NCBI RefSeq assembly: GCF_004348725.1
Contig: NZ_SMKR01000002.1
Location: 1 to 64,000 of the forward strand
DNA length: 64,000 nucleotides
Reading direction: 5' to 3'
Source of the DNA: Kribbella turkmenica
Lineage (GTDB): Bacteria; Actinomycetota; Actinomycetes; Propionibacteriales; Kribbellaceae
The translations under genes were made by a program, and so were the position numbers. Below the pieces are notes generated by a model that saw nothing but the letters and a program-made list of their open reading frames with translations, made no database searches and had not been told where the DNA came from. Below, in pieces: positions 5,603 through 35,723 of this stretch. How positions within the stretch are numbered: the first letter of the stretch is position 1; every line of letters begins with the position of its first letter.

Positions 5603-5630
5603 TTGACTGGGCCGGGATCTCTTGGATACT
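5603..5630 (+). promoter_or_regulatory. Promoter for the plus-strand GH28 gene
   Basis: TTGACT at 5603-5608 and GATACT at 5625-5630 are 16 bases apart. A weaker operator-like site, TGCAAAGGTTTACC (5635-5648), follows the -10 box immediately and shares its left half with the operator at 5536-5549. Confidence 0.6.
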
Positions 5631-5677
5631 TGCGTGCAAAGGTTTACCCCGATCACCCGAACGGAAGGTGCCCGCCC

Positions 5678-7081: not shown

Positions 7082-7111
7082 CGGCGCCCCGGCCCGTGGA
7101 GAAGGCGAGAG

Positions 7112-8125: not shown

Positions 8126-8164
8126 CCTTGCCCCCAAACCTTCGTCCGCTTGTCGAATTGTCGT

Positions 8165-8180
8165 GTGCAAACGATTGCAC
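8165..8180. promoter_or_regulatory. LacI-type operator before the GH42 gene
   Basis: The sequence GTGCAAACGATTGCAC contains the same 14-base core as the site at 5536-5549, with matching G/C flanks that extend the inverted repeat. It overlaps a possible -35 element (TTGCAC, 8175-8180). Confidence 0.75.
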
Positions 8181-8203
8181 TGTAGGCGTCTGATCGGTTA
8201 ACT
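8175..8203 (+). promoter_or_regulatory. Possible promoter of the GH42-GH2 pair, leaderless
   Basis: TTGCAC (8175-8180), 17 bases, then TTAACT (8198-8203). Transcription would start at about 8210, essentially at the ATG at 8211. No Shine-Dalgarno sequence precedes that ATG, which fits a leaderless message. The -10 match is weak. Confidence 0.35.
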
Positions 8204-8210
8204 TCTACGC

Positions 8211-13194
<4,984 letters not shown>

Positions 13195-14644: not shown

Positions 14645-17389
14645 CTACCGCGGGGTGATGAAGGTGATGTAGCTGGAGTTGCCTTTGCCTTCCACGGCTG
14701 AGTTGGCGCCGAGGGCGAGTTGGCCGGCGGGGACGTCTCGTGCGAAGAGGAGCAGACGTTGGTCTGTGGTGCCTACGGTCTCGCCTGTGCGGGTGTAGTC
14801 GTTCAGCCAGGTCGGCCACCAGTCGTTCTCGCCTCGCGGGTCGAAGGCGACGTACACGGTGGCCGGGGCGGTCAGGTCGAGGGTGATGTAGTCGGCCGGC
14901 CCGGTGCGTTTGGAGTCGTCGTTGGAGCCGGGGACCATCGCCTCGCCCGTCAGCGACGCGGGCAGGTCGGTGATCGTGTAGCTGCGGTCGACGTAGATCT
15001 CCGCACCCGGCTGTGCTTTCACCAGGTTCGACAGCTTGTCAGGCGTCCGCACCGTGACCAGGTCGCTCAGCACCGGCGGCTCACTCGCCGGTACGCCGAG
15101 CATCCGCGAGCCGACCGTCTTCACCTCCGTCGCCGCCTGCCCGGTCAGCGGCACATGCTCGAACGACGAAAGCGGAACGGCGACCCGTTCGACCACATAG
15201 GAGTGGTTGGCGAGCACGGGCACGGTGATCACCTCATCAGTGCTCGGTCCGACGAGCGTCCGGCCGCGGGAGTCGACCACACGCACCTCCTGTCCCGCCC
15301 ACGGGTTCCGGACCTGCAGAGACTCACGCGACCCTGCCTCGATCCCGACCAGGCTGACCACACCGTCCCGCACCTCGGTGCTGATCCGGTGCCCACCCTC
15401 GATCTCGACGGACCCGGCGACGTCCCACTCGCGCGGCCACGCCGGCGCGACGTCCACGACATCGTCGTACGACTGGACCAGTGCTTCCTGCAGACCGGTG
15501 GTCAGCACACCGCCCCACTCGTTGTAGAAGCTCTGCTGCCGAACGGGTTCGCGCCCGGTCCGGTGCACGGTGAAGCCGTTCGGGAAGATCTGGAAGTCCT
15601 CGATGCCCTTCAGCAGCAGCCGCTTCACCTCGTCGGCCAGCCCGAGCCGGGCCGCCCACGTGGTGTCCATGCCCCAGTCCTTGTCCTGCGGGTAGACCCG
15701 CTGGCGGTACGTCGCCTGCATCAACTCGGACGACTCGTCGAACAGCCCCCACGGCCAGAGCACCTCCATCTCCGGGTTCTGCGTGTTGTGCGCCTCCTCG
15801 TCGGTACCGGACCATGCGATCACCTCCTCGCCGCCACGCTGCACGGTCCGGAACGGCGGTAGCTTGCCGACGGCTGTCCGCAGCCGAGCAGCGAGCTCAG
15901 AGTCTCCACGGGCAGCCGCGAGATCCGCGACGATCGGGAAGATCACCCGCATCGCCGCCAGGTCCGGCGCCGGGTCGTCGGTGTCCCACTGGACCTCGAG
16001 CGCGTTCACGTGCTCGAGGTGCAGGTAGCCGTCCTCACCAGGCGTCAGCGCGGTCAGGTGGAACTCCGCGATGTCGCGGATCAGCGGATAGGCGCGGTCC
16101 AGCAGTGCGCGGTCGCCGGTGTAGCGGTACTGCCACCAGATGTTGTTCACCAACTCCGGGCCGCTGCTCAGGATGCGCTTGACCCAGCCCGGTTCGGACA
16201 TGTTGTCGCAGCCGTCGCCAGTACCGTCGTACCGCAGGAACTCCGGCAAGCACGTCCCCTGTGCGCCGATCCAGTGATCGTGCGTCCACTTCTTCATCAG
16301 CTCGGCACGGTCGAGGTAGAACCGGAAGTACGGCGCGTTGAACTCGCCGATCCCGGCCCCCAGGTTGGACGAGATCAGCATCCGCAAGTTGAAGTGCCAG
16401 TACGAGTCCTGCGCCCAGTCGGCCTGGTCCTTCGCCGACGAGAACATCCGGACGACGCCGCCGTGCGTACTGGGCACCGGTGACCGCATCGACGCGGCCA
16501 TCGTGTAGAGCTGCAACGTCCGCAGGGTCTCGACGTACTCACCGGTGCCGTCGGCCGACGTGATCCGCAGCGGGGCGGCCTTCGCCCAGAACGCGTGCCA
16601 CCAGTCGAGGTGCTCGCTGCGCGACTCGGCCACGGCCCGGCGCGCGGCCTTCGCGACGTCACCACCCTGGTACGACGGTACGCCGACAACCAGCCGGAAC
16701 GACCCGTCGGCGTTGGGCCGGAACGTGATCCGGACGGTCAGGGGGTCGATCACCGAGGCCGACACGTCCCGCGCGCGAGCCGTCATCGCGGCGACGGCTC
16801 CGGTGAGACTGCCCGAGGCGGCGTCCCGGAAGGTCTCCGCCAGCGCGGCGACCGCGCCGGTCGCCGCGGCGGTCGGCGTCCGGCCCTCCCACAGCTTGAG
16901 GTCCGCGGTCTGCGTCGTGCCGGGATCGGCGCCGGTCACCTCGAGGACGAACTGGTCGGCGTCCGCGCGGACGTAGGACCGGGCCGACATACCGCCGCCG
17001 TGCTGGACAACCTGGCCGTCGTACATCGCGAGCCGGCCGGTGTAGTCGGCGGCCCGCATCAGCGGTTGCAGGCCGGGGACGACCAGACGTCCGGCGGACT
17101 TGAGCTCGGGAAACGTGTCGACGCGGTTGAGCTGAGCGGTGTAGCCCTTCTCGGCCCACACCGCCGCGCCGAGCACGCCGTTGCCGAGCGGCATCGCCTG
17201 GTAGGCACGCCAGGCCGGTCCCTTCTGGACGAGATCGGACCGGGAGACGAGCCCGGCGGGATCGGTGCGCAGCGCACCGTCGTGCCAGGCGGTGGCCGGG
17301 AGCTCCTCGGCCTGGCTCGAGACGAACGGCACCGAGCTGGTGCCGACGGCAAGTAATGTCGCGAGGAGGGGTAAGGACAGTCGAAGCAT
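14645..17389 (-). CDS. Secreted GH95-like (alpha/alpha)-barrel protein
   Basis: This 914-residue protein has a Sec signal (LRLSLPLLATLLAVGTSSV) and an overall layout like GH95 or DUF5703 proteins: an N-terminal beta domain with PLGNGVLGAAVW, a helical barrel (WAQDSYWHFNLRML, then RYTGDRALLDRAYPLIRDIAEF), and a C-terminal beta region of about 150 residues. It is only distantly related to the neighbouring GH95 enzyme, and an equivalent of that enzyme's catalytic glutamate was not confirmed. GGAAGG lies seven bases before the ATG. It follows the aldo/keto reductase by 23 bases in the fucose-type operon, so it probably acts on the same extracellular glycan. The specific activity is unknown. Confidence 0.7.
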   Translation of the reverse strand: MLRLSLPLLATLLAVGTSSVPFVSSQAEELPATAWHDGALRTDPAGLVSRSDLVQKGPAWRAYQAMPLGNGVLGAAVWAEKGYTAQLNRVDTFPELKSAGRLVVPGLQPLMRAADYTGRLAMYDGQVVQHGGGMSARSYVRADADQFVLEVTGADPGTTQTADLKLWEGRTPTAAATGAVAALAETFRDAASGSLTGAVAAMTARARDVSASVIDPLTVRITFRPNADGSFRLVVGVPSYQGGDVAKAARRAVAESRSEHLDWWHAFWAKAAPLRITSADGTGEYVETLRTLQLYTMAASMRSPVPSTHGGVVRMFSSAKDQADWAQDSYWHFNLRMLISSNLGAGIGEFNAPYFRFYLDRAELMKKWTHDHWIGAQGTCLPEFLRYDGTGDGCDNMSEPGWVKRILSSGPELVNNIWWQYRYTGDRALLDRAYPLIRDIAEFHLTALTPGEDGYLHLEHVNALEVQWDTDDPAPDLAAMRVIFPIVADLAAARGDSELAARLRTAVGKLPPFRTVQRGGEEVIAWSGTDEEAHNTQNPEMEVLWPWGLFDESSELMQATYRQRVYPQDKDWGMDTTWAARLGLADEVKRLLLKGIEDFQIFPNGFTVHRTGREPVRQQSFYNEWGGVLTTGLQEALVQSYDDVVDVAPAWPREWDVAGSVEIEGGHRISTEVRDGVVSLVGIEAGSRESLQVRNPWAGQEVRVVDSRGRTLVGPSTDEVITVPVLANHSYVVERVAVPLSSFEHVPLTGQAATEVKTVGSRMLGVPASEPPVLSDLVTVRTPDKLSNLVKAQPGAEIYVDRSYTITDLPASLTGEAMVPGSNDDSKRTGPADYITLDLTAPATVYVAFDPRGENDWWPTWLNDYTRTGETVGTTDQRLLLFARDVPAGQLALGANSAVEGKGNSSYITFITPR

Positions 17390-17412
17390 GGATCAGCCTT
17401 CCGGGGCGGGAA

Positions 17413-18264
17413 CTACAGGCAAGCGTGCAGAGCGGTCCACAGGTCGGGCGGCAGCGGTTGCCCCCAGAGCTCGACGTTCTCGCGGGCCTCGGTCGCGGTG
17501 GCACAGCCGATCAGGACTGTCGTCACGGCGGGATGGGTGGCCGGGAAACGCATCGCGGCCGCCTTGAGCGGGACGCCGTACGACGCGCACACCCTGGCCA
17601 ACCGGTCGACCCGGTCGACGATCCCGGGCGGTGCCGGGCGGTAGTCGTACGTCGAGCCGCCGGCCAGGATGCCGGAGTTGAAGACGCCGCCGGCGACCAC
17701 GGCGACGTCGCGGCCGGCGGCGAGCGGGAGCAGGTCGTCCGCGGCCGAGCGGTCGAGCAGGGTGTAGCGGCCGGCGATCAGCACGACGTCGAGGTCGGTG
17801 TCGCGGACGAAACGGGCCGGGATCTCCGGGCTGTTCATGCCGATCCCGATCGCGCCGATCACGCCTTGGCGGCGGAGGTCGTCGAGCACCGGGTACGCCT
17901 CGTCGAGCGCCTGCCGCACGTGGTCGTCCGGGTCGTGCAGGTGGACGATGTCGACCCGGTCGAGCCCGAGCCGGGTGAGGCTCTCCTCGACCGACCGCGA
18001 GATCCCGTCCGCGCTGAAGTCGTACTCCACCTGATCTCCCACGACCCGCCGCCCGGCCTTCGTGCTGACCTTGTACGACGTTCGCTCCACTCCTGCCAGC
18101 GCAAGACCGAGCCGCCGCTCGGCCGAACCCGCTCCGTACAGGGGAGCCGTGTCGAAGTAGTCGACGCCGGCTCCGAGCGCTTCCTCGACCGCAGCCTGAG
18201 CGGCAGCCGACTCACCTTCGGCCAGTGGTGCCGTGCCCAGCCCCAGCGGACCGAGCACCGTCAT
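17413..18264 (-). CDS. Aldo/keto reductase, probable L-fucose (threo-aldose) dehydrogenase
   Basis: The product is 283 residues with the aldo/keto reductase tetrad Asp38, Tyr43 (DTAPLYG), Lys69 (STKAGR) and His110 (HLHDPD). The overall pattern (GLGTAPL at the N-terminus, LDVVLIAGRYTLLD) resembles the L-fucose / D-threo-aldose 1-dehydrogenase and pyridoxal dehydrogenase branch, which oxidises a sugar to its lactone with NAD(P). Its ATG overlaps the stop of the GH95 gene by four bases. The GH95 enzyme upstream would release L-fucose or L-galactose, and the lactonase-type amidohydrolase in the same operon would open the lactone formed here, so this substrate assignment is consistent with context. 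Confidence 0.78.
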   Translation of the reverse strand: MTVLGPLGLGTAPLAEGESAAAQAAVEEALGAGVDYFDTAPLYGAGSAERRLGLALAGVERTSYKVSTKAGRRVVGDQVEYDFSADGISRSVEESLTRLGLDRVDIVHLHDPDDHVRQALDEAYPVLDDLRRQGVIGAIGIGMNSPEIPARFVRDTDLDVVLIAGRYTLLDRSAADDLLPLAAGRDVAVVAGGVFNSGILAGGSTYDYRPAPPGIVDRVDRLARVCASYGVPLKAAAMRFPATHPAVTTVLIGCATATEARENVELWGQPLPPDLWTALHACL

Positions 18265-20702
18265 GGCCGGGGCTCGATGAAGTAGTCGACTCCTGGGCGG
18301 GTGCGGAACTCGACGACACCGTCCTCCGGGCGGGCGAAGGCGACTGGGCCGGCGGAAGACTTGACGTCGACCTCGATGCCGGTGCGCAGCTTCAGGCGGT
18401 TGCCCAGGAAAGAGTTGATGCGGGCTCGGGTCAGTTGGCCGTCGGACCAGGTGAGCTCCAGATCGAAACCGCCGCGGGCGCGGAGGCCCCGGACCTTGCC
18501 GGTGGGGAAGGCGGCAGGCAGGCACGGCAGCAGGGCGACCTCGCCGGAGTGGCTCTGCATGATCATCTCGGTGATGCCGGAGACACCGCCGAAGTTGCCG
18601 TCGATCTGGAACGGCGGGTGCAGGTCGAAGAGGTTCGGTGCCGTTCGGCCGGGAGCCAGCAACTGGGTCAGGTGCTTGTACGCGTTGTCCGGCTCGAGCA
18701 GGCGCGCCCGCATGTTCAGCTTCCACGCGAGCGACCAGCCCGCCGTCACCGCCGGTCCCCGGAGCTCCAGTGACTTCCGGGCCGCGTCGGCGAGTTCCGG
18801 CGTACGGCGCGGGGTGATCTGGTCGCTCGGGAAGAGCGCCCACAGGTGGGAGATATGGCGGCTGGTCTCCAGCGCGGCCTCCTCCCAATCGATCAGCCAC
18901 TCCTGGATCTGGCCGAGGTACCCGACCTGGATCGGCGGCAGCTTGGACCGCGCCTCGGCGACCTGCGCGGCCATGCCGGCGTCCTTGCCCAGCAGGGCGG
19001 CGGCCTGGCCGAAGATCTTGAACAGGTCGTGCAGGATCTCGCTGTCCATCGCCGGACCGGCGCAGATACTGACGCCCTCGTTGTCGTAGTCGTGGTGCTT
19101 CACTTCGGGCGAGTGCGACGGGCTGGTCACCAGATAGCCCGTCGGTCCGTCCGTCTGCAACTGGTCGAGGAAGAACTCCACACACCCGCGCAGCACCGGG
19201 TAGTACTGCCGCAGCATGTCCAGGTCGCCGGTGTACTCGTACCGTTCCCAGAACAGCAACGACAGCCACGCACCGCCGGTCGGCCAGACACCGTAGTACG
19301 CGAAGTCCACCGGAGCGGTCCCGCGCCAGCCGTCGGTGTTGTGGTGCGCGACCCAGCCGGGCGCGTCGTACATCACCTCGGCAGTCCGCGCGCCGGACTC
19401 GGCCAGCTCGGCGATCATCTGGAACAGCGGGTCCCAGCACTCCGCGAGGTTCGCCGGGCCGGCAGGCCAGTAGTTCATCTCGCAGTTGATGTTCAGGGTG
19501 AACTTCGACTGCCACTCGGGCAGCATCTTGTAGCTCCAGATGCCCTGCAGGTTCGCCGGCTGGCCCGGGCTGCGTGAGCTGGAGATCAGCAGGTACCGGC
19601 CGAACTGGTAGTACAGCGCGGCCAGTTGCGGATCCCCGCCGTTGCGGAAGGCGACCACCCGCTGATCGGTCGGGAGCGCGATCGCGTCCGACGTCCCGAG
19701 GTCGAGGTCCAGCCGGCCGAACAGCCGCCGGTAGTCCTCGACGTGCGCCTTCCGGAGCAGCCCGTACGCCGGGCGCGACGAGGGCAGCGGGGCCGACGCC
19801 CGAGTCACCTGGTCGGCACTGACGTCGAGGTAGTTGCGGTAGCTCGACCCGATCGACAGCACCAGCGTGACCGCATCCGCACCCGCGACAGTGAGCTTGC
19901 CGTCAGCAACCTTCGTGGCCCCGCCCTCGGCGAAGGCCCGGGCGAGCGCGCAGAACCCGACGGACCCCGTCAGCCCCTCCGCGTCGCCGCTGATCCCGTT
20001 CAGCGCCAGCGTCCGGTCGTCGTACCGATCGACCGTCGCGGTCTGTGGGGTGGTGAAGGTCGCGTCGAAGGACAGCGCGCCGGCGCGGTCGGCAGTCAGC
20101 CGCATCACCAGCAGTTGCGCGGGATGGCTGACGAACACCTCACGCCGGTAGTGCACGCCGTCGGCGACGTAGCTGACCGAGGTGATCGCGCTGGTCAGGT
20201 CCAGTTCCCGCCGGTACGACGTGACGCCGGCCTCGGTGATGCCCGGGAACGTCAGCATCAGGTCGCCGACCGGTTGGTACTGCATCTGCTCGGTCGGGCG
20301 GCCCATGAACTTCTCGTCGGCCAGCATCTGCGCGGCCAGGTAGTCCTCCTCGGCGATCAGCCGGCGGATCTCCGGCAGCGCCTCCCGGCCGGCCGGGTCG
20401 TCGTACTGGTGCGGTCCGCCGGCCCAGATCGAGTCCTCGTTCAGCTGGAGCTGCTCGGTCGCGATCCCGCCGTACACCATCGCGCCGAGCCGGCCGTTGC
20501 CGACGGCAAGCGCCTGGAGCCATTCGGTGGCGGGCCGGGTGTACCAGAGTTGCAGCGGGTTGGTGTCGCTGCCCACCGGTCCGGGGGCGGCAGTGGCGGT
20601 CAGGGGATCGGTCAGCGAATCGGTCAGGGCGCCGGCGACGACTGCGGTGCCGGCCGCGGCGCCGGCGGTCCGCAGGACCTGGCGTCGGGTGTACTCGTTC
20701 AT
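18261..20702 (-). CDS. GH95 alpha-L-fucosidase / alpha-L-galactosidase, Tat-secreted
   Basis: This 813-residue enzyme starts with TRRQVLRTAGAAAG, a twin-arginine signal. The N-terminal beta domain (AVGNGRLGAMVYGG) and helical barrel (PANLQGIWSY) are typical of family 95. Two active-site asparagines are visible in FTLNINCEMNYW (Asn404, Asn406) and the general acid is probably Glu601 (QIQEW), matching the arrangement in characterised 1,2-alpha-L-fucosidases. FQIDGNFGG is also present. Members cleave alpha-L-fucose or alpha-L-galactose from plant glycans. GGGAG precedes the ATG by nine bases. It lies 13 bases after the amidohydrolase gene in a tightly packed operon. Confidence 0.92.
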   Translation of the reverse strand: MNEYTRRQVLRTAGAAAGTAVVAGALTDSLTDPLTATAAPGPVGSDTNPLQLWYTRPATEWLQALAVGNGRLGAMVYGGIATEQLQLNEDSIWAGGPHQYDDPAGREALPEIRRLIAEEDYLAAQMLADEKFMGRPTEQMQYQPVGDLMLTFPGITEAGVTSYRRELDLTSAITSVSYVADGVHYRREVFVSHPAQLLVMRLTADRAGALSFDATFTTPQTATVDRYDDRTLALNGISGDAEGLTGSVGFCALARAFAEGGATKVADGKLTVAGADAVTLVLSIGSSYRNYLDVSADQVTRASAPLPSSRPAYGLLRKAHVEDYRRLFGRLDLDLGTSDAIALPTDQRVVAFRNGGDPQLAALYYQFGRYLLISSSRSPGQPANLQGIWSYKMLPEWQSKFTLNINCEMNYWPAGPANLAECWDPLFQMIAELAESGARTAEVMYDAPGWVAHHNTDGWRGTAPVDFAYYGVWPTGGAWLSLLFWERYEYTGDLDMLRQYYPVLRGCVEFFLDQLQTDGPTGYLVTSPSHSPEVKHHDYDNEGVSICAGPAMDSEILHDLFKIFGQAAALLGKDAGMAAQVAEARSKLPPIQVGYLGQIQEWLIDWEEAALETSRHISHLWALFPSDQITPRRTPELADAARKSLELRGPAVTAGWSLAWKLNMRARLLEPDNAYKHLTQLLAPGRTAPNLFDLHPPFQIDGNFGGVSGITEMIMQSHSGEVALLPCLPAAFPTGKVRGLRARGGFDLELTWSDGQLTRARINSFLGNRLKLRTGIEVDVKSSAGPVAFARPEDGVVEFRTRPGVDYFIEPRP

Positions 20703-20715
20703 GAGGGCGGTCTCC

Positions 20716-21624
20716 CTAGGGGCGGTAGGTGCGCTGGGCGGTGCCGCGGAACACGTCGTTGTGTGCGGCCGCCGGCAGCAGTTCAGCGGTACGGCGAAGG
20801 ACCTCGGCGCGTGTGCTCGACAGCGTGCACACGGGCCAGTCGGAGCCGAACATCAACCGGTCACTGCCGAAGAGGCCGAGCGTGACGTCGATGAGTTCGG
20901 CCAGGGTGTCGGAGGCGAGGTGGGCGGTGCCGGAGAGCTTGACGGTGACGTTCGGGCGGTCGGCGAGTGCCTTCATCCCGGTCAGCCAGTCGTCTGTCGG
21001 GGCGGCGGGGTTGCCGAGGTGGTCGAGGACCAGGCGGGCGCCGGGTACGGCGCCGGCGAGCCGGGCGGCCCCGAGCAGGGCGGGTGGGCGGAGCAGCAGG
21101 TCGATCGCGAGTCCGGCGTCGGCGGCGGCGCAAACTCCGCGGACGAACCCGGCGTCGTCGAGTGCCCCGGGGTCGGTCTGGTCGGCGGGTGGGCAGCGGA
21201 CGCCGACGAGCTTGGTGTGCTCGGGGAACGAGGCGCTGCGGTGGAGGTCGAACCAGCCGACGACGCCGAGGACCGCGGGTGTGGCCGCGGCGAGGCCGAG
21301 CAGGTCGGTGACTTCGAGGGGGTCGGCGTCGGCCTGGACGAGGATGGTGTCCGGCAGCCGGCCGCCGCCGGACCGGGCGAGGTCGGGGAGGGTGAAGTCG
21401 CGGCGGAGCGGGTGCCCGGCAGGCAACCACGGGAGAGCCCGCCGGGAGGTGTCCCACAGGTGCACGTGGGCGTCGAGGTGATGGACGGCGGCGGCGTGAT
21501 CAGCGAGGGGCGCGGGGGTGGCGGAGGGCACCCAGGCCGGGAGGCGAGCCGCGGTTGCGGGCCGGAGTGGAGGCTCGGTCGGGTGGTCGCGCGGAGAGGG
21601 GCGGGTTTCCGGCGGATCAGTCAT
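20716..21624 (-). CDS. Amidohydrolase family lactonase (L-fuconolactonase type)
   Basis: This 302-residue protein belongs to the COG3618 amidohydrolase group. DAHVHLWD gives the metal-binding His-x-His at about residue 52, VLDHLGNP a further His, and FGSDWPV the catalytic Asp near residue 265. Members open sugar lactones, notably L-fucono- and L-rhamnono-1,4-lactone. The first 45 residues are Pro/Ala-rich and not part of the fold, so translation may start later, for example at the GTG for Val32. The annotated ATG overlaps the GntR stop by eight bases. Placed next to a GH95 gene and a fucose-dehydrogenase-like enzyme, an L-fuconolactonase role is most likely. Confidence 0.8.
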   Translation of the reverse strand: MTDPPETRPSPRDHPTEPPLRPATAARLPAWVPSATPAPLADHAAAVHHLDAHVHLWDTSRRALPWLPAGHPLRRDFTLPDLARSGGGRLPDTILVQADADPLEVTDLLGLAAATPAVLGVVGWFDLHRSASFPEHTKLVGVRCPPADQTDPGALDDAGFVRGVCAAADAGLAIDLLLRPPALLGAARLAGAVPGARLVLDHLGNPAAPTDDWLTGMKALADRPNVTVKLSGTAHLASDTLAELIDVTLGLFGSDRLMFGSDWPVCTLSSTRAEVLRRTAELLPAAAHNDVFRGTAQRTYRP

Positions 21625-22732: not shown

Positions 22733-22810
22733 GGCTGCATGGTGACCCGGCGCACACCGGTCTGCCAACCCTTTATGGTGCGGACTTCTGACTCACGGCA
22801 TCCAGTTTGC

Positions 22811-22826
22811 CGTTTAAACGTTGACA
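22811..22826 (+). promoter_or_regulatory. Palindrome abutting a -35 box upstream of the ABC transporter
   Basis: CGTTTAAACG (22811-22820) is a perfect 10-base palindrome in otherwise GC-rich sequence. It is followed directly by TTGACA (22821-22826), a perfect -35 for the plus operon; no good -10 was found at the usual distance. A regulator bound here would contact the -35. The local GntR regulator is the obvious candidate. Confidence 0.4.
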
Positions 22827-22909
22827 TTTCAGCGTCACGCTCTGCATCGTCGATCGCTAACGACGCCCGGCCGCCCCCGACGCCGGGACGATCCGAGGAG
22901 GACCCGGAG

Positions 22910-25979: not shown

Positions 25980-27931
25980 CGATGACCAGCAACGCATCCG
26001 CCGCCGCGGTCGCGGCCCCACCGCACGTCGTCGCCCAGACGCCCGTCGGCAGCCCGCCCGCGTGGGCGATCATGCAGCGCCGCCTGTTCGACGTGATGGA
26101 CGAGGGGTGGTGGCTGTTCCGCGAACGCTACTGCCTGCCCGACGGCAGCCTGCGGTACGCCGGACCCGTCCCGAGCCGCGACGGCGCGGACGACTTCTAC
26201 GAGGCGTTCGTGAACTGGCCGGTGCTCTATCAGCTCGGCGGTGCGGACGACCTGATCGACGTCGCCAAGTGGCACTGGGAAGGCGTCACCCGGCAGCTCA
26301 CCGACCTCGGGTTCCTGGTGGACGAGTTCGAGCGCGGCTACGACTGGTTCCACCTCGGCGAGTCGATGATCTTCTTCTACTCGCTGTGCGCGGCCGACCC
26401 GGGCGACGAGGAGTTCCGCGAGCGCGCGTACCGGTTCGCCGAGCTGTACCTGCCGGGCTCGCCGGCGGGCAACTACGACGCCGCCACCCGGACGATCCGC
26501 GCGCCGCACAACGGCGGCGGAGGTCCGCGCTGGGGGATCAACGACGAGTGGCGTTCGTACGGCGCCGACCTGACGACCATGCGGGTCTTCGGCCTGCCGC
26601 TGCCCGGCGTCCCGGGCATCCGGACCTGGAACGACCTGAAGGATCCGGCCAAGGCCGACCTGATGGGCGCGGAGATGATCCGCCGGCTCGGCGCCGGCGA
26701 CGTCGCGGTGAACCTCGCCGCGACCACGCTGACCGCGAACGCCTGGCTCTACGACCACAACGACCGCTTCGCGGCCTGGACGCTGGAGTACCTCGACGCC
26801 TGGCAGGAGCGGGCCGCGGCGAACGGCGGACTGCTGCCGGACAACGCTGGACCGAGCGGTGAGGTCGGCGAGCTGCACGGCGGCCGCTGGTACGGCGGCA
26901 ACTACGGCTGGAACTGGCCGCACGGTGTGTACTCCGTCGGCTCGGCCGCCTGTATCGCGGCCGTGAACGGCGCCCTGCTGACCGGCGACCCGAGCAGGCT
27001 CGACGTCGCGCGCACGCTGCTCGACCACCTGTACGAACGGGGCATCACGGCCGCCGTCGACGACACCGACCTGAGCATCCGCGACCGGTGGCAGGCCGAG
27101 CTGGGCGAGGACTGCGCGAAGCCGACCCTGCTGATCCCGAACCGCTACGGCGACGACGGCTGGTTCGACTACCAGCCGCCGCAACTGGGGCTGCCGGTCT
27201 GGCTGTGGCAGGCGGCCTTCGAGCCGTCCGACCGGGAACGCCTGCGGCGGCTCCGGGAGCGCAGCGGCTACGACTGGCGGACCGTGCGCGACTTCCGGAA
27301 CAAGGAGGACGCCGGTCACGAGGCGCCCTGGCTCGCCTACCTCGCCGGTGACAACCCCGGCTACCCCGAGGCGATGCTGGGGGTCGCGTTGTCCCAGGTG
27401 CAACGCCGGATGGATTTGATGGCCGTCGACACCGTCGACCCGGCCGACCTGAACATCCACCACTGGCAGCGGCACAACCCGGTCGCGACCGAGGCTCTGC
27501 TGCAGTTGACCACCGGCACTCCGCAGCTGCTCTACAACGGCGGCCTGCTGCCGTTGCGCGTGCTGTACCTCGACCCCGAACGCGGCCGTCCCGGTCTGCC
27601 CGCCGACGTCGCCGCGCTGGTCGACACGGTCGAGCCGGACCGCACCGGTCTGCAACTGGTGAACCTGTCCGCGACCCAGGCCCGCCGGGTGATCGTCCAG
27701 GCCGGCAGCTTCGGCACCGACCGGATCGACGAGGCCGTCGTCACCACCGCCACCGGTGACTACCCCGGCCCGGCCGCCGCCTACACCTCGCCGCCACCCG
27801 CTCCGGGCACCGAGACGATCGTTGTCGGCGGCAACAGACTTGACGTCACGATGCCGCCGGGCCGGACCGTCCGGCTCGACCTGCGGCTCACCCGCAACGC
27901 CTATCGCGCCGCCCACGTGGCGCTTGACTGA
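25976..27931 (+). CDS. Unassigned cytoplasmic carbohydrate-operon protein
   Basis: This 651-residue protein has no signal peptide and no family I can name with confidence. Residues 30-520 are helix-rich with many Trp/Tyr/Asp clusters (GWWLFRERYCLPDGS, DDFYEAFVNWPVLY, NYGWNWPHGVYSVGSA), which resembles (alpha/alpha)-toroid glycosidases and lyases. The last 110 residues look like a small beta domain (LQLVNLSATQARRVIVQ). It overlaps the permease gene by ATGA and is eight bases from the RraA gene, so it very likely processes the imported oligosaccharide inside the cell. A glycoside hydrolase, lyase or sugar epimerase is possible. Confidence 0.7.
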   Translation: MTMTSNASAAAVAAPPHVVAQTPVGSPPAWAIMQRRLFDVMDEGWWLFRERYCLPDGSLRYAGPVPSRDGADDFYEAFVNWPVLYQLGGADDLIDVAKWHWEGVTRQLTDLGFLVDEFERGYDWFHLGESMIFFYSLCAADPGDEEFRERAYRFAELYLPGSPAGNYDAATRTIRAPHNGGGGPRWGINDEWRSYGADLTTMRVFGLPLPGVPGIRTWNDLKDPAKADLMGAEMIRRLGAGDVAVNLAATTLTANAWLYDHNDRFAAWTLEYLDAWQERAAANGGLLPDNAGPSGEVGELHGGRWYGGNYGWNWPHGVYSVGSAACIAAVNGALLTGDPSRLDVARTLLDHLYERGITAAVDDTDLSIRDRWQAELGEDCAKPTLLIPNRYGDDGWFDYQPPQLGLPVWLWQAAFEPSDRERLRRLRERSGYDWRTVRDFRNKEDAGHEAPWLAYLAGDNPGYPEAMLGVALSQVQRRMDLMAVDTVDPADLNIHHWQRHNPVATEALLQLTTGTPQLLYNGGLLPLRVLYLDPERGRPGLPADVAALVDTVEPDRTGLQLVNLSATQARRVIVQAGSFGTDRIDEAVVTTATGDYPGPAAAYTSPPPAPGTETIVVGGNRLDVTMPPGRTVRLDLRLTRNAYRAAHVALD

Positions 27932-27939
27932 GGAGACAT

Positions 27940-28746
27940 ATGAGCAGCGGTACCGAACAAGCCCCCGTGGCCCCGGTCTGGGACCTCCCGGTGCGCGGCG
28001 AGAACCCGCCGGCCCCGGACCCCGGTCTGGTGTCCCGGCTGTCCAGGATCGGGTCGGCCACCGCCTGCGCCCGGTTACACGGGCAGGGCATCCGGCGGAC
28101 GTTCGTCGACGGGCCGACCAGCATGCTGCCCGGCAAGAAGGTCGTCGGCCGCGCGCTGACGCTGCAGTTCATGCCGCAGCGCGAGGACATCGCCGACGGC
28201 CAGACGCAGGAGTACATCGAGCGCAGTACGGCGCTGTGGGCTGTCCTCGACGAGGTCCAGCCCGGTGACGTACTCGTGGTGCAGGCGTACGGCAGCCACA
28301 CCACCGGCTGCTTCGGCGACATGCTGGTCCGCTACTTCAAGCTCCGTGGCGGTGCCGGCATCGTGGTGGACGGCCGGATCCGCGACGTTCCCCGGGTGTC
28401 GCAGCTCGACGTCCCGATCTGGTCCACCGGCGCCACCCCGCACTACGCGTCCCAGTCCGAGCTCTTTCCCTGGGCCTACAACGTCCCGGTCGCGGTCGGC
28501 GGCGTCCTCGCGCTGCCCGGTGACCTGGTCGTGGCCGACGACGACGGCGCCGTCGTCGTACCGCGGCAACGGGCGGAGGCCGTCGTCCAGGCGGCCGCCG
28601 AGCACGACGCGTGGGAGAAGTTCAGCCGTCGCCGGATCGACGAGGGCGCACCGCTGCGCGACTACTACCCCCTGACCGAGAAGACCCGCCTCGAGTACGA
28701 AGCCTGGCGCACCACGCAGAACGGCAACGGTGCAGCCGGGGACTGA
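27940..28746 (+). CDS. RraA / HMG-aldolase family protein
   Basis: This 268-residue protein belongs to the RraA-like fold, which includes 4-hydroxy-4-methyl-2-oxoglutarate aldolases and oxaloacetate decarboxylases. The core is seen in GDVLVVQAYGSHTTGCFGDML, then GAGIVVDGRIRDVPRV (the Arg-Asp metal and substrate motif) and GDLVVADDDGAVVVP. GAGGAGA is six bases before the ATG. An N-terminal extension of about 30 residues precedes the domain. Placed after the transporter and the unassigned enzyme, it may cleave a 2-keto-3-deoxy sugar acid at the end of the pathway; true RraA (RNase E regulator) function is unlikely here. Confidence 0.82.
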   Translation: MSSGTEQAPVAPVWDLPVRGENPPAPDPGLVSRLSRIGSATACARLHGQGIRRTFVDGPTSMLPGKKVVGRALTLQFMPQREDIADGQTQEYIERSTALWAVLDEVQPGDVLVVQAYGSHTTGCFGDMLVRYFKLRGGAGIVVDGRIRDVPRVSQLDVPIWSTGATPHYASQSELFPWAYNVPVAVGGVLALPGDLVVADDDGAVVVPRQRAEAVVQAAAEHDAWEKFSRRRIDEGAPLRDYYPLTEKTRLEYEAWRTTQNGNGAAGD

Positions 28747-28769
28747 CCCCTGAGAGGACCCCGCCCAAC

Positions 28770-30632
28770 ATGTCCACAAAGAGAACCAGGCGTACGGCGT
28801 TCAGCGTCGGCGCCGGGGCGGTAGCCGCCGCCCTGGTGGCCGTGGCTGCCGTCCAGCTGAACACCCAGCCCGCGGGCGCCGCCAAGTGCGAGAACTTCTA
28901 CGTCGCACCGAACGGCGACGACCAGGCCAAAGGCACCGAGAAGAGCCCGTGGAAGACGATCACCCGGGCCCGCGACGAGATCCGGAACAAGCGGCTCAAC
29001 GACCGGATTGGCTGCGACATCACCGTCAACCTGAAGGCCGGCGAGTACCCGGTCTCGTCCACCGTCCGGTTCGACCAGCGCGACTCCGGCAGGAACGGCC
29101 ACCGGGTCGTCTACCGCAGCATCGACGGGCCGGGGAAGGCGACCCTGTCCGGGGCCGAGGAGATCACCGGCTGGACGCCGTACCGAGACGGCATCTACAA
29201 GGCGAGGATCGACGCCTCGAAGCCGTTCTACACGCTGTTCGAGGACGGCACCCGGGCCACCAACGCCCGCTACCCGAACCGCGGCACCGAGGACACCTGG
29301 TCGCCGTACCTGACGTCCATCCTCTACGAGGAGGACAAGATGGACGTCCGCAACTGGATGTGGGGCAAGCCCGGTGACTGGGACCCGAGCTGGGACCTGA
29401 GCCAGGCGTCGGTGACCATCTGGTCCGGCGGCTCGTGGTCGTGGTTCACCGACACGATCCCATTGCTGGACACGAACTTCAGGAAGACCCAGACGACGCT
29501 CAAGCACTGGACCCGCTACGCGATGGTCAACAGCCGCGGCGGCTCCCGGTACTTCTTCCACAACTCGCTCAGCTTCCTCGACCAGCCGGGGGAGTACTAC
29601 CTGGACTACAAGGCCGGCGAGGTCTACTACAAGCCGCGCGGCGGCACGATGGACGGCGTCAAGGTGCTCCGGCCGACTGTGAAGACCGTGCTCGACCTGG
29701 CCGGGAAGTCGGCCGACGACCGGCTGCACGACGTCACCTTCGACGGGCTCGGGGTGCAGTACTCCGACTTCGTCACCTGGTACCGCAGCGGCTGGGTGTC
29801 CAGCGGCGATGCCGGCGTGGAGCACAAGTACCCGGAGTACGACCGGCAGATCGAGCTGCCGCGGAACCGGTTCGGCGCGATCCGGCTGACCAACACCAGC
29901 AACATCGACCTGACCAGGCTGCGGGTGTCGGACACCGGGTTCAGCGGGATCTACCTGCTGTTCGCCAACGACCACACCCGAATCACCGACAGCCTGCTGG
30001 AGAACATCGGTGCCGACGGCATCAAGGTGGAGGGCGGCTGGCCCGGTGAGGGCGACCTGAACAACCACCACACGATCTCGAACGTCTTCATCGACCATGT
30101 CGGCGAGTTGGTACCGGGTGACGCGGCCGGGATCGAGCTGATGGACACCGGCGACAACACGGTCTCGAACGTCCACGTCCAGCACAGCGCCCGCTACGGC
30201 ATCAGCCTGGAGTCGCGGCCCGAGGTCAAGGACGGCGAGCAGTACACGTCCGGCAACAGCTTCAAATACATCCGGCTGGAAAAGACCGGTCTCGACAGCG
30301 GCGACATGGGCGCGTTCTACACCTACGGCGTCGACAACCAGGAGCCGCACCCGGTGCAGAACACGGTCGAGCAGATGGTGGTCGGGGACGTGATCCCGGA
30401 CCCGTCGATGCCGGACGCCGGCGGCACCCGCGGCGTGCACATGGACGCCGGTGGTTGCGGATTCTCGTTCGCGAACATCGAGGTCGGGAAGGTCTCCGAC
30501 GACAAGTACCAGTCGTACAGGTGCAACCAGGTCACCAACGCCAACTGGGCCGAGGGTTTCGACGCCGCGAAGATGGAGTACGACAAGATCGGCGTACTGC
30601 CCACCTTCCCGTACGACGTGACGGGGCGGTGA
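28770..30632 (+). CDS. Secreted right-handed beta-helix protein, tandem copy 1
   Basis: This 620-residue protein has an N-terminal signal (TKRTRRTAFSVGAGAVAAALV, with an RR pair compatible with Tat). The mature part opens FYVAPNGDDQAKGTEKSPWKT and continues as parallel beta-helix repeats with many Asn/Gly turns. The pattern resembles secreted beta-helix glycosidases such as the GH120/GH141-type families, but I cannot assign a family. Conserved features in all three copies include GSWSWFTDT, YYKPRGGTMDG, ENIGADGIKVEGGWPGEGD and VHMDAGGCGFSF. It starts 23 bases after the RraA gene and is followed by two close paralogues, so it belongs to the transporter operon and likely trims the same polymer outside the cell. 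Confidence 0.85.
   Translation: MSTKRTRRTAFSVGAGAVAAALVAVAAVQLNTQPAGAAKCENFYVAPNGDDQAKGTEKSPWKTITRARDEIRNKRLNDRIGCDITVNLKAGEYPVSSTVRFDQRDSGRNGHRVVYRSIDGPGKATLSGAEEITGWTPYRDGIYKARIDASKPFYTLFEDGTRATNARYPNRGTEDTWSPYLTSILYEEDKMDVRNWMWGKPGDWDPSWDLSQASVTIWSGGSWSWFTDTIPLLDTNFRKTQTTLKHWTRYAMVNSRGGSRYFFHNSLSFLDQPGEYYLDYKAGEVYYKPRGGTMDGVKVLRPTVKTVLDLAGKSADDRLHDVTFDGLGVQYSDFVTWYRSGWVSSGDAGVEHKYPEYDRQIELPRNRFGAIRLTNTSNIDLTRLRVSDTGFSGIYLLFANDHTRITDSLLENIGADGIKVEGGWPGEGDLNNHHTISNVFIDHVGELVPGDAAGIELMDTGDNTVSNVHVQHSARYGISLESRPEVKDGEQYTSGNSFKYIRLEKTGLDSGDMGAFYTYGVDNQEPHPVQNTVEQMVVGDVIPDPSMPDAGGTRGVHMDAGGCGFSFANIEVGKVSDDKYQSYRCNQVTNANWAEGFDAAKMEYDKIGVLPTFPYDVTGR
30085..30632 (+). repeat. Near-identical repeat shared with 31944-32488
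   Basis: The 3' ends of beta-helix copies 1 and 2 share long runs of identical bases, including synonymous positions (for example the segments encoding HVGELVPGDAAGIELMDTGD and MDAGGCGFSFANIEVG). One codon differs in number near the end. Such DNA-level identity beyond protein need indicates recent duplication or conversion. Confidence 0.75.
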
Positions 30633-30637
30633 CCGGG

Positions 30638-32488
30638 ATGCGAGTAGTGGGTGGACTGGTCATCGGTCTGGCTCTCGGAGTGATCGGCGCAGGCACCGCG
30701 CTCGGCGCGAAACCCGCCGAGCAGACGGGCTGCCGGTCGTTCTGGGTCGCACCGGACGGCAAGGACTCGGCCCAGGGCACGGAGTCGAAGCCCTGGCGCA
30801 CGATCGAACACGCACGTGACACCATCCGCACGCGCGGGTGGAACCGGCACCTGTCCTGTGACCTGGTGGTCAACGTGAAGGCGGGGACCTACCAGGTCGA
30901 CCAGACGATCGCCTTCGACGACCGCGACTCCGGGTCGAACGGACACAAGGTCGTCTACCGGAGCGCCGACGGGCCCGGGAAGGCCGTGCTCCAGGCAGCG
31001 CGGGAGGTCACCGGCTGGACGCCGTACAAGGACGGCATCTTCAAAGCCACGGTGGACGCCGACGAGCCGTTCTACACGCTGTACGTCGACGGCGAACGCG
31101 CCACCACCGCGCGGTACCCGAACCGGCGGTCCGACGAGGAGTGGGCGCCGTACCTGGAGTCGGTGCTGATCGAGCCGGAGAAGGAGGCGGTCCGCGACCA
31201 GGTCGGCTACACCGCGGGCGACTGGGACGAGACCTGGAACCTGAACAGCTACACCGACTGGCCGGCGCAGCTGATGATCTGGTCCGGCGGCTCCTGGAGC
31301 TGGTTCACCGACACGGTGCCGATCAAGAACGCGGACTGGAAGGACAACAAGGTCATCCTGGACTACTGGACCCGGTACGCGATGATCAACTCCCGGGCCG
31401 GTTCGCGGTACTTCGTCCAGAACTCGCTCGACCTGCTCGACGCCGAGGACGAGTACTACCTCGACTGGGCGGCTAAGGAGCTGTACTACAAGCCGCGCGG
31501 CGGCACGATGGACGGCAAGCGCGTGCTGCGGCCGACGCAGACCGAGGTGCTGTCGCTGGCCGGAGTCTCCCCGGCCCGCCGGCTGCAGGACGTCGCGTTC
31601 AAGGGGCTCGGCATCGCCGGCACCGACTTCATGCAGTGGTACCGGTCGGGCTGGATCAGTGCGGGTGACTCCGGTCAGAAGCACAAGTACCCGGAGTACG
31701 ACCGGCAGATCGAGATGACCCGGAACCGGTTCGGCTCGGTCACGCTGACCAACACCCGCAACGTCGACCTCACCGGACTGCACCTGCGCGACACCGGCTA
31801 CCACGGTGTCTACCTGCTGGCGGCCAACGACCACGTCTCGGTGACCGACAGCCTGCTGGAGAACATCGGCGGCGACGGGATCAAGGTCGAGGGTGGTTAC
31901 CCGGGCGAGGGTGACGTCTCGAACCACAACACGTTCAGCAACCTCTTCATCGACCATGTCGGCGAGTTGGTGCCGGGTGACGCGGCCGGGATCGAGCTGA
32001 TGGACACCGGCGACAACACGGTCTCGAACGTCCACGTCCAGCACAGTGCGCGCTATGGCATCAGTCTGGAGTCGCGGCCGGAGGTGAAGGACGGTGAGCA
32101 ATACGCGTCCGGCAACAGCTTCAAGTACATCCGGTTGGAGGAGACGGGGCTGGACAGTGGCGACATGGGTGCGTTCTACACCTATGGCGTGGACAACCAG
32201 GAGCCGCATCCGGTGCAGAACACGGTGGAGCAGATGGTGATCACCGATGTGATCCCGGATGCCTCGATGCCGGACAGCGGTACCCGCGGTGTGCACATGG
32301 ACGCCGGTGGTTGCGGATTCTCGTTCGCGAACATCGAGGTCGGCCAGGTGACCGATGACAAGTACCAGTCGTACAGGTGCAACCAGGTGACGAACGCCAA
32401 CTGGGCCGAGGGTTTCGACGCCGCGAAGATGGAGTACGACAAGATCGGCGTGCTGGCGTCCTTCCCGTACGACGTGGCGGGGCGGTGA
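30638..32488 (+). CDS. Secreted right-handed beta-helix protein, tandem copy 2
   Basis: The product is 616 residues with a Sec-type signal (MRVVGGLVIGLALGVIGAG) and the same beta-helix architecture as its neighbours. ATG at 30638 was chosen; an in-frame GTG at 30629 overlaps the previous stop by GTGA and could serve for coupling. Its last 180 residues are almost identical to copy 1, also at the DNA level, whereas its signal peptide is almost identical to copy 3. This mosaic points to recent gene conversion among the three. Substrate is presumed to be the plant glycan served by the adjacent transporter. Confidence 0.85.
   Translation: MRVVGGLVIGLALGVIGAGTALGAKPAEQTGCRSFWVAPDGKDSAQGTESKPWRTIEHARDTIRTRGWNRHLSCDLVVNVKAGTYQVDQTIAFDDRDSGSNGHKVVYRSADGPGKAVLQAAREVTGWTPYKDGIFKATVDADEPFYTLYVDGERATTARYPNRRSDEEWAPYLESVLIEPEKEAVRDQVGYTAGDWDETWNLNSYTDWPAQLMIWSGGSWSWFTDTVPIKNADWKDNKVILDYWTRYAMINSRAGSRYFVQNSLDLLDAEDEYYLDWAAKELYYKPRGGTMDGKRVLRPTQTEVLSLAGVSPARRLQDVAFKGLGIAGTDFMQWYRSGWISAGDSGQKHKYPEYDRQIEMTRNRFGSVTLTNTRNVDLTGLHLRDTGYHGVYLLAANDHVSVTDSLLENIGGDGIKVEGGYPGEGDVSNHNTFSNLFIDHVGELVPGDAAGIELMDTGDNTVSNVHVQHSARYGISLESRPEVKDGEQYASGNSFKYIRLEETGLDSGDMGAFYTYGVDNQEPHPVQNTVEQMVITDVIPDASMPDSGTRGVHMDAGGCGFSFANIEVGQVTDDKYQSYRCNQVTNANWAEGFDAAKMEYDKIGVLASFPYDVAGR
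31944..32488 (+). repeat. Second copy of the beta-helix 3' repeat
   Basis: This is the partner of 30085-30632, in the same orientation and offset by 1859 bases at its start. It could act as a site for recombination that deletes or amplifies one beta-helix gene. Confidence 0.75.
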
Positions 32489-32493
32489 GTCAG

Positions 32494-34323
32494 ATGCGTG
32501 TACTGGGTGGAGTGGTCATCGGTCTGGCTCTCGGAGTGATCGGCGCAGGCACCGCGCTGGGCGCGAAACCCGCCGCGCACACCGGCGGATGCCCCTCGTT
32601 CTGGGTGTCACCGGCCGGCGACGACGCCGGGCCGGGGACGGAACGCAAGCCGTGGAAGACGGTGGAGCACGCCCGCGACACCCTGCGGGTCCGCAAGCTC
32701 GACTGCGCGCCGGTGGTCAACCTGCGGGCCGGAACGTATCGGGTCGACCAGACGATCACCTTCGACGACCGCGATTCGGGAACGACCTACCGGAGCGTGG
32801 ACGGTCCGGGGAAGGCGGTGTTCGAGGGCGCCACGGAGGTCACCGGCTGGACGCCGTACAAGGACGGCATCTTCAAGGCGCCGGTGGACATCGACAAGCC
32901 GTTCCACACGCTGTACGCCGACGGGAAGCGTGCCACCACGGCCCGCTATCCCAACCGGCGGTCGGACGACGAGTGGGCGCCGTACCTGCGCTCGATCCTG
33001 TTCGACCCGACCAAGGAGGCGGTCCGCGACCAGCTCGGCTTCAACGCCGGCGACTGGGACCCGTCCTGGGACCTGCGGCTCGGGACGTCGTGGCCGGCGC
33101 AGGTCACGGTCTGGTCGGGTGGCTCGTGGTCATGGTTCACCGACACCGTGCCGCTGCTCGACATCAACCACACCAAGCGGCGGACGACGCTGATCTACCC
33201 GGCCCGGTACGGGTTCGTCAACTCCGGCGGCGGATCGCGGTACTTCGTGCAGAACTCGCTCAGTCTGCTCGACCAAGACGGCGAGTACTACCTGGACTAC
33301 CCGGCGAAGCAGCTGTACTACAAGCCGCGCGGCGGGACCATGGACGGCGTCAAGGTGCGGCGGCCGACGGTCGCCGAGGTGTTCTCGATCAAGGGTGTGT
33401 CGGCGAACCGGCGAGTGGAGAACCTGACCCTCGACGGTCTGGCGATCCAGCACACCGACTTCACGGAGTGGTACCGCTACGGCTGGAACGGCACCGGCGG
33501 GTCCGGGTTCCGGCACAAGTACCCGAAGTACGACACCCAGATCGAGCTCCCGCGGAACCGGTGGGGCGCGATCACGCTGACCAACACCCGCGGTGTCACG
33601 CTGACCCGGATGCACCTGCGGCAGACCGGCTTCACCGCGGTCGAGCTGCTGTTCGCGAACGAGCGGACGACGGTCTCGGACAGTCTGTTCGAGCACCTCG
33701 GCAACGACGGCATCAAGGTCGAGGGCGGCTGGCCCGGTGAGGGCGACCTTGCCCACAGCAACGTCTTCACCAACAACTACATCCACCACGTCGGCGAGCT
33801 GGTCCCGGGCGACTCGGCCGGCGTCGAGATCATGAACAGCGGCCGCAACGAGATCAGTCACACGGTTGTCGAGCACGGCGCCCGGTACGGCATCAGCATC
33901 GAGTCGCGGCCGGAGATCCCGAACGCCGACAACTACGCCGGCGGCAACACCGTCCACCACGTGCGGCTGTCGCACCTGGCCAAGGACAGCGGCGACACCG
34001 GTCCGTTCTACGCGTACGGCGTACGCAACCAACCGCCGTACACGCCGGACGCGGCGGTGTCGCAGCTGGTGATCGACGACGCCAACGCCGATCCGTCGAT
34101 GCCGGACAGCAAGCCGTACGGCGTGCACATGGACTTCGGCGGCTGCGGGTTCGCGTTCTCCGACGTGAAGGTGACGAACACCCAGAACGACCCGTACCAC
34201 GGGCCGTCGGCGGGACCGTGCGACACCTTCGAGAACGTCAGCTGGGAGGACGGGTTCGACGACTCCCGGATGGAGTACGACCGGATCGGCGTCCTGCCGT
34301 CGTTCCCGTACGACAAGCCCTGA
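32494..34323 (+). CDS. Secreted right-handed beta-helix protein, tandem copy 3
   Basis: This 609-residue protein has a signal peptide (MRVLGGVVIGLALGVIGAG) nearly the same as copy 2 at DNA level, while the rest is more divergent: about ten residues are missing early on (DSGTTYRSVDGPGKAV) and the C-terminus differs (CDTFENVSWEDGFDDSRMEYD). Core motifs are retained (YYKPRGGTMDG, GIKVEGGWPGEGD, MDFGGCGFAF). ATG at 32494 was used; a GTG at 32485 overlaps the previous stop. It is the last gene of the operon and is followed by a strong hairpin. A specificity different from copies 1 and 2 is plausible. Confidence 0.84.
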   Translation: MRVLGGVVIGLALGVIGAGTALGAKPAAHTGGCPSFWVSPAGDDAGPGTERKPWKTVEHARDTLRVRKLDCAPVVNLRAGTYRVDQTITFDDRDSGTTYRSVDGPGKAVFEGATEVTGWTPYKDGIFKAPVDIDKPFHTLYADGKRATTARYPNRRSDDEWAPYLRSILFDPTKEAVRDQLGFNAGDWDPSWDLRLGTSWPAQVTVWSGGSWSWFTDTVPLLDINHTKRRTTLIYPARYGFVNSGGGSRYFVQNSLSLLDQDGEYYLDYPAKQLYYKPRGGTMDGVKVRRPTVAEVFSIKGVSANRRVENLTLDGLAIQHTDFTEWYRYGWNGTGGSGFRHKYPKYDTQIELPRNRWGAITLTNTRGVTLTRMHLRQTGFTAVELLFANERTTVSDSLFEHLGNDGIKVEGGWPGEGDLAHSNVFTNNYIHHVGELVPGDSAGVEIMNSGRNEISHTVVEHGARYGISIESRPEIPNADNYAGGNTVHHVRLSHLAKDSGDTGPFYAYGVRNQPPYTPDAAVSQLVIDDANADPSMPDSKPYGVHMDFGGCGFAFSDVKVTNTQNDPYHGPSAGPCDTFENVSWEDGFDDSRMEYDRIGVLPSFPYDKP

Positions 34324-35608: not shown

Positions 35609-35723
35609 CTGCCTTTCTGCCCGGGCCGTCGGCGCCGGCGGGATCCTGGGGCCTCGGCTCCCGGCCTTCCGTCGCTCCAGTCGCTGCTTTCCCTCCACCC
35701 CTCAGTCCAGGCCGGGAGGCCCC

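Follow-up and report, generated by a model that had tools for sequence, protein, structure and literature searches.

A divergent gene block between positions 14645 and 34323 of the 64-kb window analysed here (the whole stretch of DNA under study, which lies on a 110-kb contig of the 7.45-Mb genome of Kribbella turkmenica) most plausibly encodes a locally regulated system using L-fucose-type sugars of plant cell-wall glycans, with pectin side chains the likeliest source, a reading to which we give a probability of roughly 0.55. The candidate sugars are L-fucose and possibly 2-O-methyl-L-fucose or L-galactose, any of which may be the main one. The block contains U651, a protein of 651 residues without a family description, and the presence of U651 tracks L-fuconate dehydratase (FucD) across actinobacteria. 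This association, the protein families, the catalytic residues of the GH95 and GH141-like enzymes, the gene order, a conserved candidate operator and the FucD genes elsewhere in the genome were all obtained by computation. The block comprises the following features:

14645 to 17389, minus strand: secreted GH95/GH139-like protein of 914 aa with signal peptide, DUF5703_N and a partial GH95 catalytic domain (Pfam)
17413 to 18264, minus strand: cytosolic aldo/keto reductase (AKR), candidate L-fucose/L-galactose 1-dehydrogenase, accessory (Pfam, PDB matches)
18261 to 20702, minus strand: GH95 alpha-L-fucosidase/L-galactosidase with Tat signal (Pfam, catalytic residues)
20716 to 21624, minus strand: amidohydrolase (AMH) of the L-fucono-1,5-lactonase type (Amidohydro_2, NF052480, 6uvz/4dlf matches)
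21617 to 22732, minus strand: GntR/FCD regulator with an extra N-terminal helix-turn-helix (HTH) of the IS630 type (Pfam/NCBIfam)
22733 to 22909, no strand: shared divergent promoter region (conservation in nine Kribbella)
22809 to 22820, no strand: candidate operator GCCGTTTAAACG, a 10-bp palindrome (conservation in Kribbella)
22910 to 24205, plus strand: sugar-binding lipoprotein (SBP) of a CUT1-type ATP-binding cassette (ABC) transporter (SBP_bac_1)
24202 to 25098, plus strand: permease 1 (P1) of the CUT1 transporter (sequence, 4-base overlaps, adjoins U651 in other genera)
25095 to 25979, plus strand: permease 2 (P2) of the CUT1 transporter (sequence, adjoins U651 in other genera)
25976 to 27931, plus strand: U651, cytosolic, 651 residues, candidate glycoside hydrolase (predicted fold, FucD association)
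27940 to 28746, plus strand: RraA-like protein, candidate class II keto-deoxy-acid aldolase (PF03737, PRK08245, D-X20-R-D stretch)
28770 to 30632, plus strand: secreted GH141-like beta-helix enzyme 1 (BH1; GH141_M, BT1002 profile match)
30638 to 32488, plus strand: secreted GH141-like beta-helix enzyme 2 (BH2; GH141_M, BT1002 profile match)
32494 to 34323, plus strand: secreted GH141-like beta-helix enzyme 3 (BH3; GH141_M, BT1002 profile match)

The link between U651 and FucD was examined in 395 Actinomycetes genomes by a hypergeometric test. U651 occurs in 21 of these genomes and FucD in 99, and all 21 U651 carriers are FucD-positive (P 4e-14). The figure by genus, with 11/11 U651 genera FucD-positive against 35/138 overall (P 7e-8), is the safer one because related genomes are not independent. 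A phylum-wide profile search of the Actinomycetota for U651 returned no carrier genomes beyond those already known. Within ~20 kb of U651, the 29 loci outside the Kribbella orthologues hold ABC permeases (20 loci), AKR (15), lactonase-type AMH (13), GH141-like proteins (10), RraA (9), and FucD (5). Chance adjacency is unlikely, since the K. turkmenica genome has just three RraA-like genes and four GH141_M matches, three of which are the window's own. A single locus (L096 and L115) carries AMH, a short-chain dehydrogenase/reductase (SDR), an FAH hydrolase, FucD, AKR and a GH141-like gene, followed by AMH, AKR, RraA, U651, and a transporter, and L094 has the order U651, RhaM-type mutarotase, AMH, PfkB-type sugar kinase (assigned by eye), and AKR. 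In L104, a U651 relative is found with AMH and two sulfatases, the latter directly preceding U651 (6186-9092), which suggests that the substrate there is a sulfated fucan. An LplB/YtcP-type transporter adjoins U651 relatives in L053, L058, L059, L097, and L098. In small genomes (L106, L107, L116, and L117), U651 is accompanied by FucD, other enolase-superfamily genes and, in three of the four, SDR. In L117, and apparently also in L116, the gene immediately upstream of U651 is glycerate-kinase-like, and genes resembling those of the 2-methylcitrate cycle were noticed nearby by eye.

The original prediction had left the 651-residue protein unassigned, and it has stayed without a family: U651 matches no Pfam or NCBIfam model, 20 members of the group gave no Pfam match better than E 0.089, and a U651 profile found 0 matches among PDB sequences. 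By sequence, U651 thus constitutes a new protein family. Its AlphaFold2 (AF2) model (pLDDT 80) predicts an (alpha/alpha)6 toroid at about residues 30-515 followed by a C-terminal beta-sandwich. Toroid hydrolases and polysaccharide lyases typically have such a sandwich. Fold comparison (VIA) placed the model nearest to GH76 (Z 15.8, root-mean-square deviation 5.0 Å over 286 residues), with GH47, UGL, and AGE also matched; on the model, these matches fix the fold class and not the function. The toroid is shared with GH76, GH47, GH88, and AGE enzymes, whereas sequence similarity to them is undetectable and U651 has invariant motifs of its own (DGxDDxYE, YDWxHxGE, PDN, and WxGGxYGW..PHG) as well as the additional beta-sandwich. 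Invariant polar residues over 45 relatives include D56, D69, D72, D73, E76, D123, H126, and E129, together with N166, D168, R237, D242, D289, N290, and H316. Cysteine-based chemistry of the GH127 kind was ruled out, as no invariant Cys occurs among the relatives. U651 is taken as cytosolic because no signal peptide is visible in its sequence. The best reading is that U651 would be a cytosolic hydrolase freeing a fucose-type sugar from imported oligosaccharides.

The genes surrounding U651 supply candidates for the oxidation of such a sugar. The AKR (PF00248, 155.7 bits) has L-galactose dehydrogenases as its best PDB matches (7.7e-36), its DTAPLYG, STKAG, and HLHD motifs are consistent with an Asp-Tyr-Lys-His active site, and it is a candidate L-fucose/L-galactose dehydrogenase. 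For the AMH, the L-fuconolactonase model NF052480 is the best match at 121.8 bits, far under its cut-off of 400, and the PDB matches are 6uvz and 4dlf; on sequence grounds the protein belongs to the wider L-fuconolactonase family, with its exact function unassigned by the model. A fuconate dehydratase had been reported missing, which is correct for the 64-kb window, where no FucD was found, but the genome has two. One, an enolase-superfamily protein on contig C225 (37286-38602; 1e-173 to the L-fuconate dehydratases 1yey/2hxt), is divergent from a second GH95 gene that is followed by LplB-type transporter genes. The other, on contig C101, is 62% identical to the C225 copy and adjoins an SDR resembling keto-deoxyfuconate dehydrogenase, which is itself 62% identical to the SDR beside FucD in small actinobacterial genomes. 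The RraA-like protein (PF03737, 115.5 bits; PRK08245, 266 bits, cut-off 208) is a candidate class II keto-deoxy-acid aldolase. Starting at residue 127 it contains the D-X20-R-D stretch DMLVRYFKLRGGAGIVVDGRIRD, which we take to be the metal/catalytic motif of RraA-like class II aldolases. PMC5065237 mentions such motifs. Members of the RraA family include HMG/CHA aldolase and FlDet, with which the window protein shares family and D-X20-R-D stretch; action on a keto-deoxy sugar acid has a precedent in the family because FlDet shows that RraA-like proteins are capable of it (PMC8563752). Literature searches for an RraA-like 2-keto-3-deoxy-L-fuconate aldolase found none. That U651 and the RraA-like protein fill steps of the same fucose pathway, as first suggested, is plausible.

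On the extracellular side, three types of secreted enzyme lie, by their sequences, within or beside families of fucosidases and L-galactosidases. All three Pfam domains of the GH95 protein (catalytic domain and N- and C-terminal beta domains) exceed their cut-offs (533.7, 239.5, and 84.5 bits). Its nearest solved relative is 7kmq, XacAfc95 (1.8e-225), followed by 4ufc, and alignment to both structures indicates that the catalytic Asn pair, the general acid Glu and the activating Asp are retained (NINCEMNYWP, SPE, and FQIDGNFG). A Thr/His position was considered as a guide to L-fucose versus L-galactose specificity and dropped, as the literature shows it not to be decisive. The beta-helix proteins, previously given no family, can now be placed near GH141: BH1 and BH3 match GH141_M over the cut-off and BH2 below it, and a profile of these proteins and their relatives matches BT1002 with E 6.8e-62 (42-595 against 24-600). 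The catalytic Asp pair of BT1002, D523 and D564, 41 residues apart, aligns with conserved Asp of the profile (D512/D559, D510/D556, and D500/D546 in the three proteins, numbered from the fragment starts used). GH141 activities comprise the fucosidase BT1002, the xylanase Xyn141E and the endo-fucanases Wf141 (PMC12786026). The window proteins resemble these in beta-helix, GH141_M domain and both catalytic Asp; they differ in forming three tandem actinobacterial copies and in being closer to PDB 9rx2 than to BT1002. The 3′ thirds of BH1 and BH2 (30090-30632 and 31940-32488) are 87-94% identical and the remainder 43-80%. At its 5′ end BH2 shares 92% identity with BH3, and the resulting mosaic has the appearance of gene conversion between tandem copies. 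The GH95-like protein is the sole DUF5703_N protein of the genome, with DUF5703_N (33.8 bits, cut-off 26.7) and GH95_cat (45.8 bits) both over cut-off, and can now be described as a DUF5703/GH139-GH95 relative. Its best PDB match, 9hyq (1.8e-15), is one of two GH139 structures (PMC12282258). GH139 enzymes are 2-O-methyl-L-fucosidases, and BT0984 has a Gln-Asn pair (Q411-N412) that is >99% conserved, an N639/E641 pair and the acid E561. By motif only, N639/E641 and E561 could plausibly correspond to NPE at 538-540 and Glu465 of the window protein, in which Phe333, not Gln, precedes the candidate Asn334, likewise placed by motif, without residue alignment to BT0984. Since the conserved Gln could not be demonstrated in it, the protein has not been assigned to GH139. 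Its AF2 model (pLDDT 35, shallow alignment) gave no usable fold.

The two operons appear to be under local control. In the regulator, GntR and FCD domains are fused to an N-terminal HTH of the IS630/IS481-transposase type, which looks as if it were a domesticated transposase DNA-binding domain. The fusion is full length in the Kribbella orthologues and in L093, a locus from another family, and absent from other relatives. The 177-bp gap between the operons is strongly conserved in nine Kribbella, and the palindrome, situated near a TTGACA hexamer, is retained in all nine (two with one change). No second site with at most one mismatch was found in the 7.45-Mb genome, nor was the palindrome found in U651 loci of other genera, which confines the operator hypothesis to Kribbella. 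In Kribbella, the fused GntR may bind the palindrome and thereby co-regulate both operons.

The pathway that we infer, in its substrates, in the reactions of U651 and the RraA-like protein, and in its regulation, would run as follows. The secreted GH95, GH139/GH95-like and three GH141-like enzymes would trim the glycan, and the CUT1 ABC transporter would bring in fucose-containing oligosaccharides or the sugar. U651 would hydrolyse the imported oligosaccharide in the cytosol. AKR (the window's, or a copy elsewhere) would then oxidise the sugar to the lactone, AMH would open the lactone, and FucD from another locus would yield 2-keto-3-deoxy-L-fuconate, which the RraA-like protein, as a class II aldolase, would split into pyruvate and lactaldehyde. 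The fused GntR would act at the single palindrome of the divergent promoter. The non-phosphorylating L-fucose pathway proceeds via FucM, the FucA dehydrogenase, the FucB lactonase and the FucC dehydratase to either the FucH aldolase or FucF/FucG (PMC11199699). Its early steps are alike, with dehydrogenase and lactonase candidates in the block and the dehydratase elsewhere in the genome; U651 relatives are accompanied by a mutarotase (L094) or by SDR and an FAH hydrolase (L115). In contrast, the window has an AKR-type dehydrogenase candidate, an RraA-like class II aldolase candidate instead of FucH, and the additional U651.

Every gene listed was found at its coordinates with a high GC3 coding signal by ORF calling and translation, families being assigned by Pfam/NCBIfam. 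This upholds the original division into a minus operon (GntR fusion, lactonase-type amidohydrolase, GH95, AKR, GH95-like) and a plus operon (CUT1 transporter, 651-residue protein, RraA-like protein, three beta-helix proteins). Start codons were refined to ATG 18264 for AKR, ATG 30638 for BH2, ATG 32494 for BH3 and, most likely, ATG 22732 for GntR. Overlaps of four bases (SBP/P1, P1/P2, P2/U651, and AKR/GH95) or about eight (AMH/GntR), and otherwise gaps of a few to ~25 bases, argue for two transcription units. Eight further Kribbella loci retain the gene set, but among the nine loci six have no AKR in the operon and some lack BH2. L093, the best copy outside the family, has no GH95-like protein; it contains a pair of GH141-like genes, AMH, GH95 in changed orientation, SBP-P1-P2-U651-RraA and the fused GntR. 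The conservation expected of a ten-gene set therefore fails in its strict form: a single fucose pathway in which fucosidase-type cleavage outside the cell is followed by import and by oxidation in the cytosol draws support from the GH95, GH141 and GH139 kin, the AKR and AMH matches, the tracking of FucD by U651, and L096 and L115, but the ten genes do not always occur as a unit. Two flanking regions may belong to the system:

4060 to 13159: pectin/galactan genes, GH28 (minus strand), then GH28, LacI, GH42 and GH2 (plus strand), probably associated (Kribbella synteny; putative functional link)
34562 to 38269, plus strand: LplB/YtcP-type ABC transporter and binding protein, possibly associated (downstream of BH3 in Kribbella loci)

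In the four Kribbella examined, the block continues upstream into GH28, GH28, LacI, GH42, and GH2, and Kribbella loci extending far enough have LplB/YtcP/YtcQ transporter genes and a GDSL gene downstream of BH3. This embedding suggests pectin, but housekeeping neighbours (HIT, helicase) are syntenic too, and genus-level synteny, which alone proves little, was therefore set aside. Farther along the window (61559-63792), an enolase-superfamily (MR/MLE) gene adjoins a DHDPS-family gene and resembles a glucarate/keto-deoxy-glucarate pair. Elsewhere in the genome (L119:6424-10675, contig C347), genes for an apiosidase-family protein and, close by, for paired transketolase-like subunits may form a locus for apiose use.

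Several observations weigh against the fucose reading. No U651 relative has a known activity, AGE epimerases share the toroid, and the U651 fold gives middling Z-scores to many families. Should GH95 free fucose extracellularly, the system could in principle do without a cytosolic hydrolase. AKR, being dispensable in most Kribbella operons, is accessory. Five of the 29 loci (L060-L064, from another family) have none of the typical neighbours, and a neighbour in L053 resembles, by eye, a heparinase II/III-type lyase, which suggests other glycans. The presumably planktonic genomes carry U651 without RraA, overlapping either a 2-hydroxyacid dehydrogenase gene (L107:7857-10693, L116:16246-19160, L117:8667-11532) or FucD (L106). 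Since L096 and L115 hold a complete canonical fucose pathway in addition to AKR, AMH, RraA, and U651, the latter set may be devoted to another sugar.

A narrower version of the fucose reading, whose probability overlaps with that of the general one, is somewhat doubtful: the target would be specifically the side chains of rhamnogalacturonan II (RG-II), with GH95 acting on terminal L-galactose, the GH141-like enzymes on chain A fucose, the GH139-like protein on chain B 2-O-methyl-fucose and AKR mainly on L-galactose. The RG-II degraders of Bacteroides thetaiotaomicron include BT1010 (GH95), BT1002 (GH141), and BT0984 (GH139), and the window likewise unites these three lineages in one locus with GH28 genes beside it; the relatives of AKR and the genomic apiosidase-family protein point the same way. 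Yet the window GH95 is nearest a xyloglucan fucosidase, with the Thr/His position indecisive, and the GH139-like protein shows no visible Gln of the Gln-Asn pair. Further differences from the B. thetaiotaomicron system are Gram-positive ABC import, sugar-oxidation genes within the locus and the atypical GH139-like protein; U651 and RraA are not mentioned in the descriptions of it consulted here. It is unlikely that U651 instead works in the cytosol as an isomerase, epimerase, lyase or dehydratase on a free sugar or sugar acid, in which case U651, RraA, AKR, and AMH would form a self-contained oxidative pathway parallel to that of FucD, with U651 in the place of the dehydratase. The toroid of AGE-type epimerases, the compact sets without internal dehydratase in L095 and L096, the separate full FucD pathway of L096 and L115, and the overlap with FucD in L106 would fit this alternative. 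The occurrence of FucD in every U651 carrier, however, means that a substitute dehydratase is not required, the C-terminal beta-sandwich and the many invariant acids speak for a different role, and to our knowledge no toroid enzyme dehydrates sugar acids. That two adjacent operons with separate roles are merely held together by general Kribbella synteny is very improbable: the syntenic housekeeping genes and the variable AKR would allow it, but L093 keeps genes of both operons despite the changed GH95 orientation, the candidate operator is conserved and occurs only once in the genome, and AMH and AKR adjoin U651 in unrelated gene orders.

With the fucose reading preferred, a family lacking Pfam or NCBIfam annotation gains a defined metabolic context, fucose oxidation, and a testable prediction of activity. 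A bolder proposal, possible but short of probable, is that U651 represents a new family of cytosolic glycoside hydrolases (or related enzymes) dedicated to fucose-type oligosaccharides, one extending from soil to small-genome, probably planktonic actinobacteria, and that its RraA-like partner is a previously undescribed class II 2-keto-3-deoxy-L-fuconate aldolase. Literature searches pairing RraA with L-fuconate, DUF5703 with glycoside hydrolase, and Nanopelagicales with fucose found little or nothing. The locus suggests how ABC-type Gram-positive degraders handle fucosylated pectins of the GH141/GH95 type, known mainly from Bacteroides. That U651 also occurs in actinobacteria with very small genomes (1.3-1.9 Mb, probably planktonic) hints at a broader part for the family in the turnover of fucose. 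If the proposal is true, U651 and the RraA-like protein together would represent a new branch of bacterial fucose catabolism.

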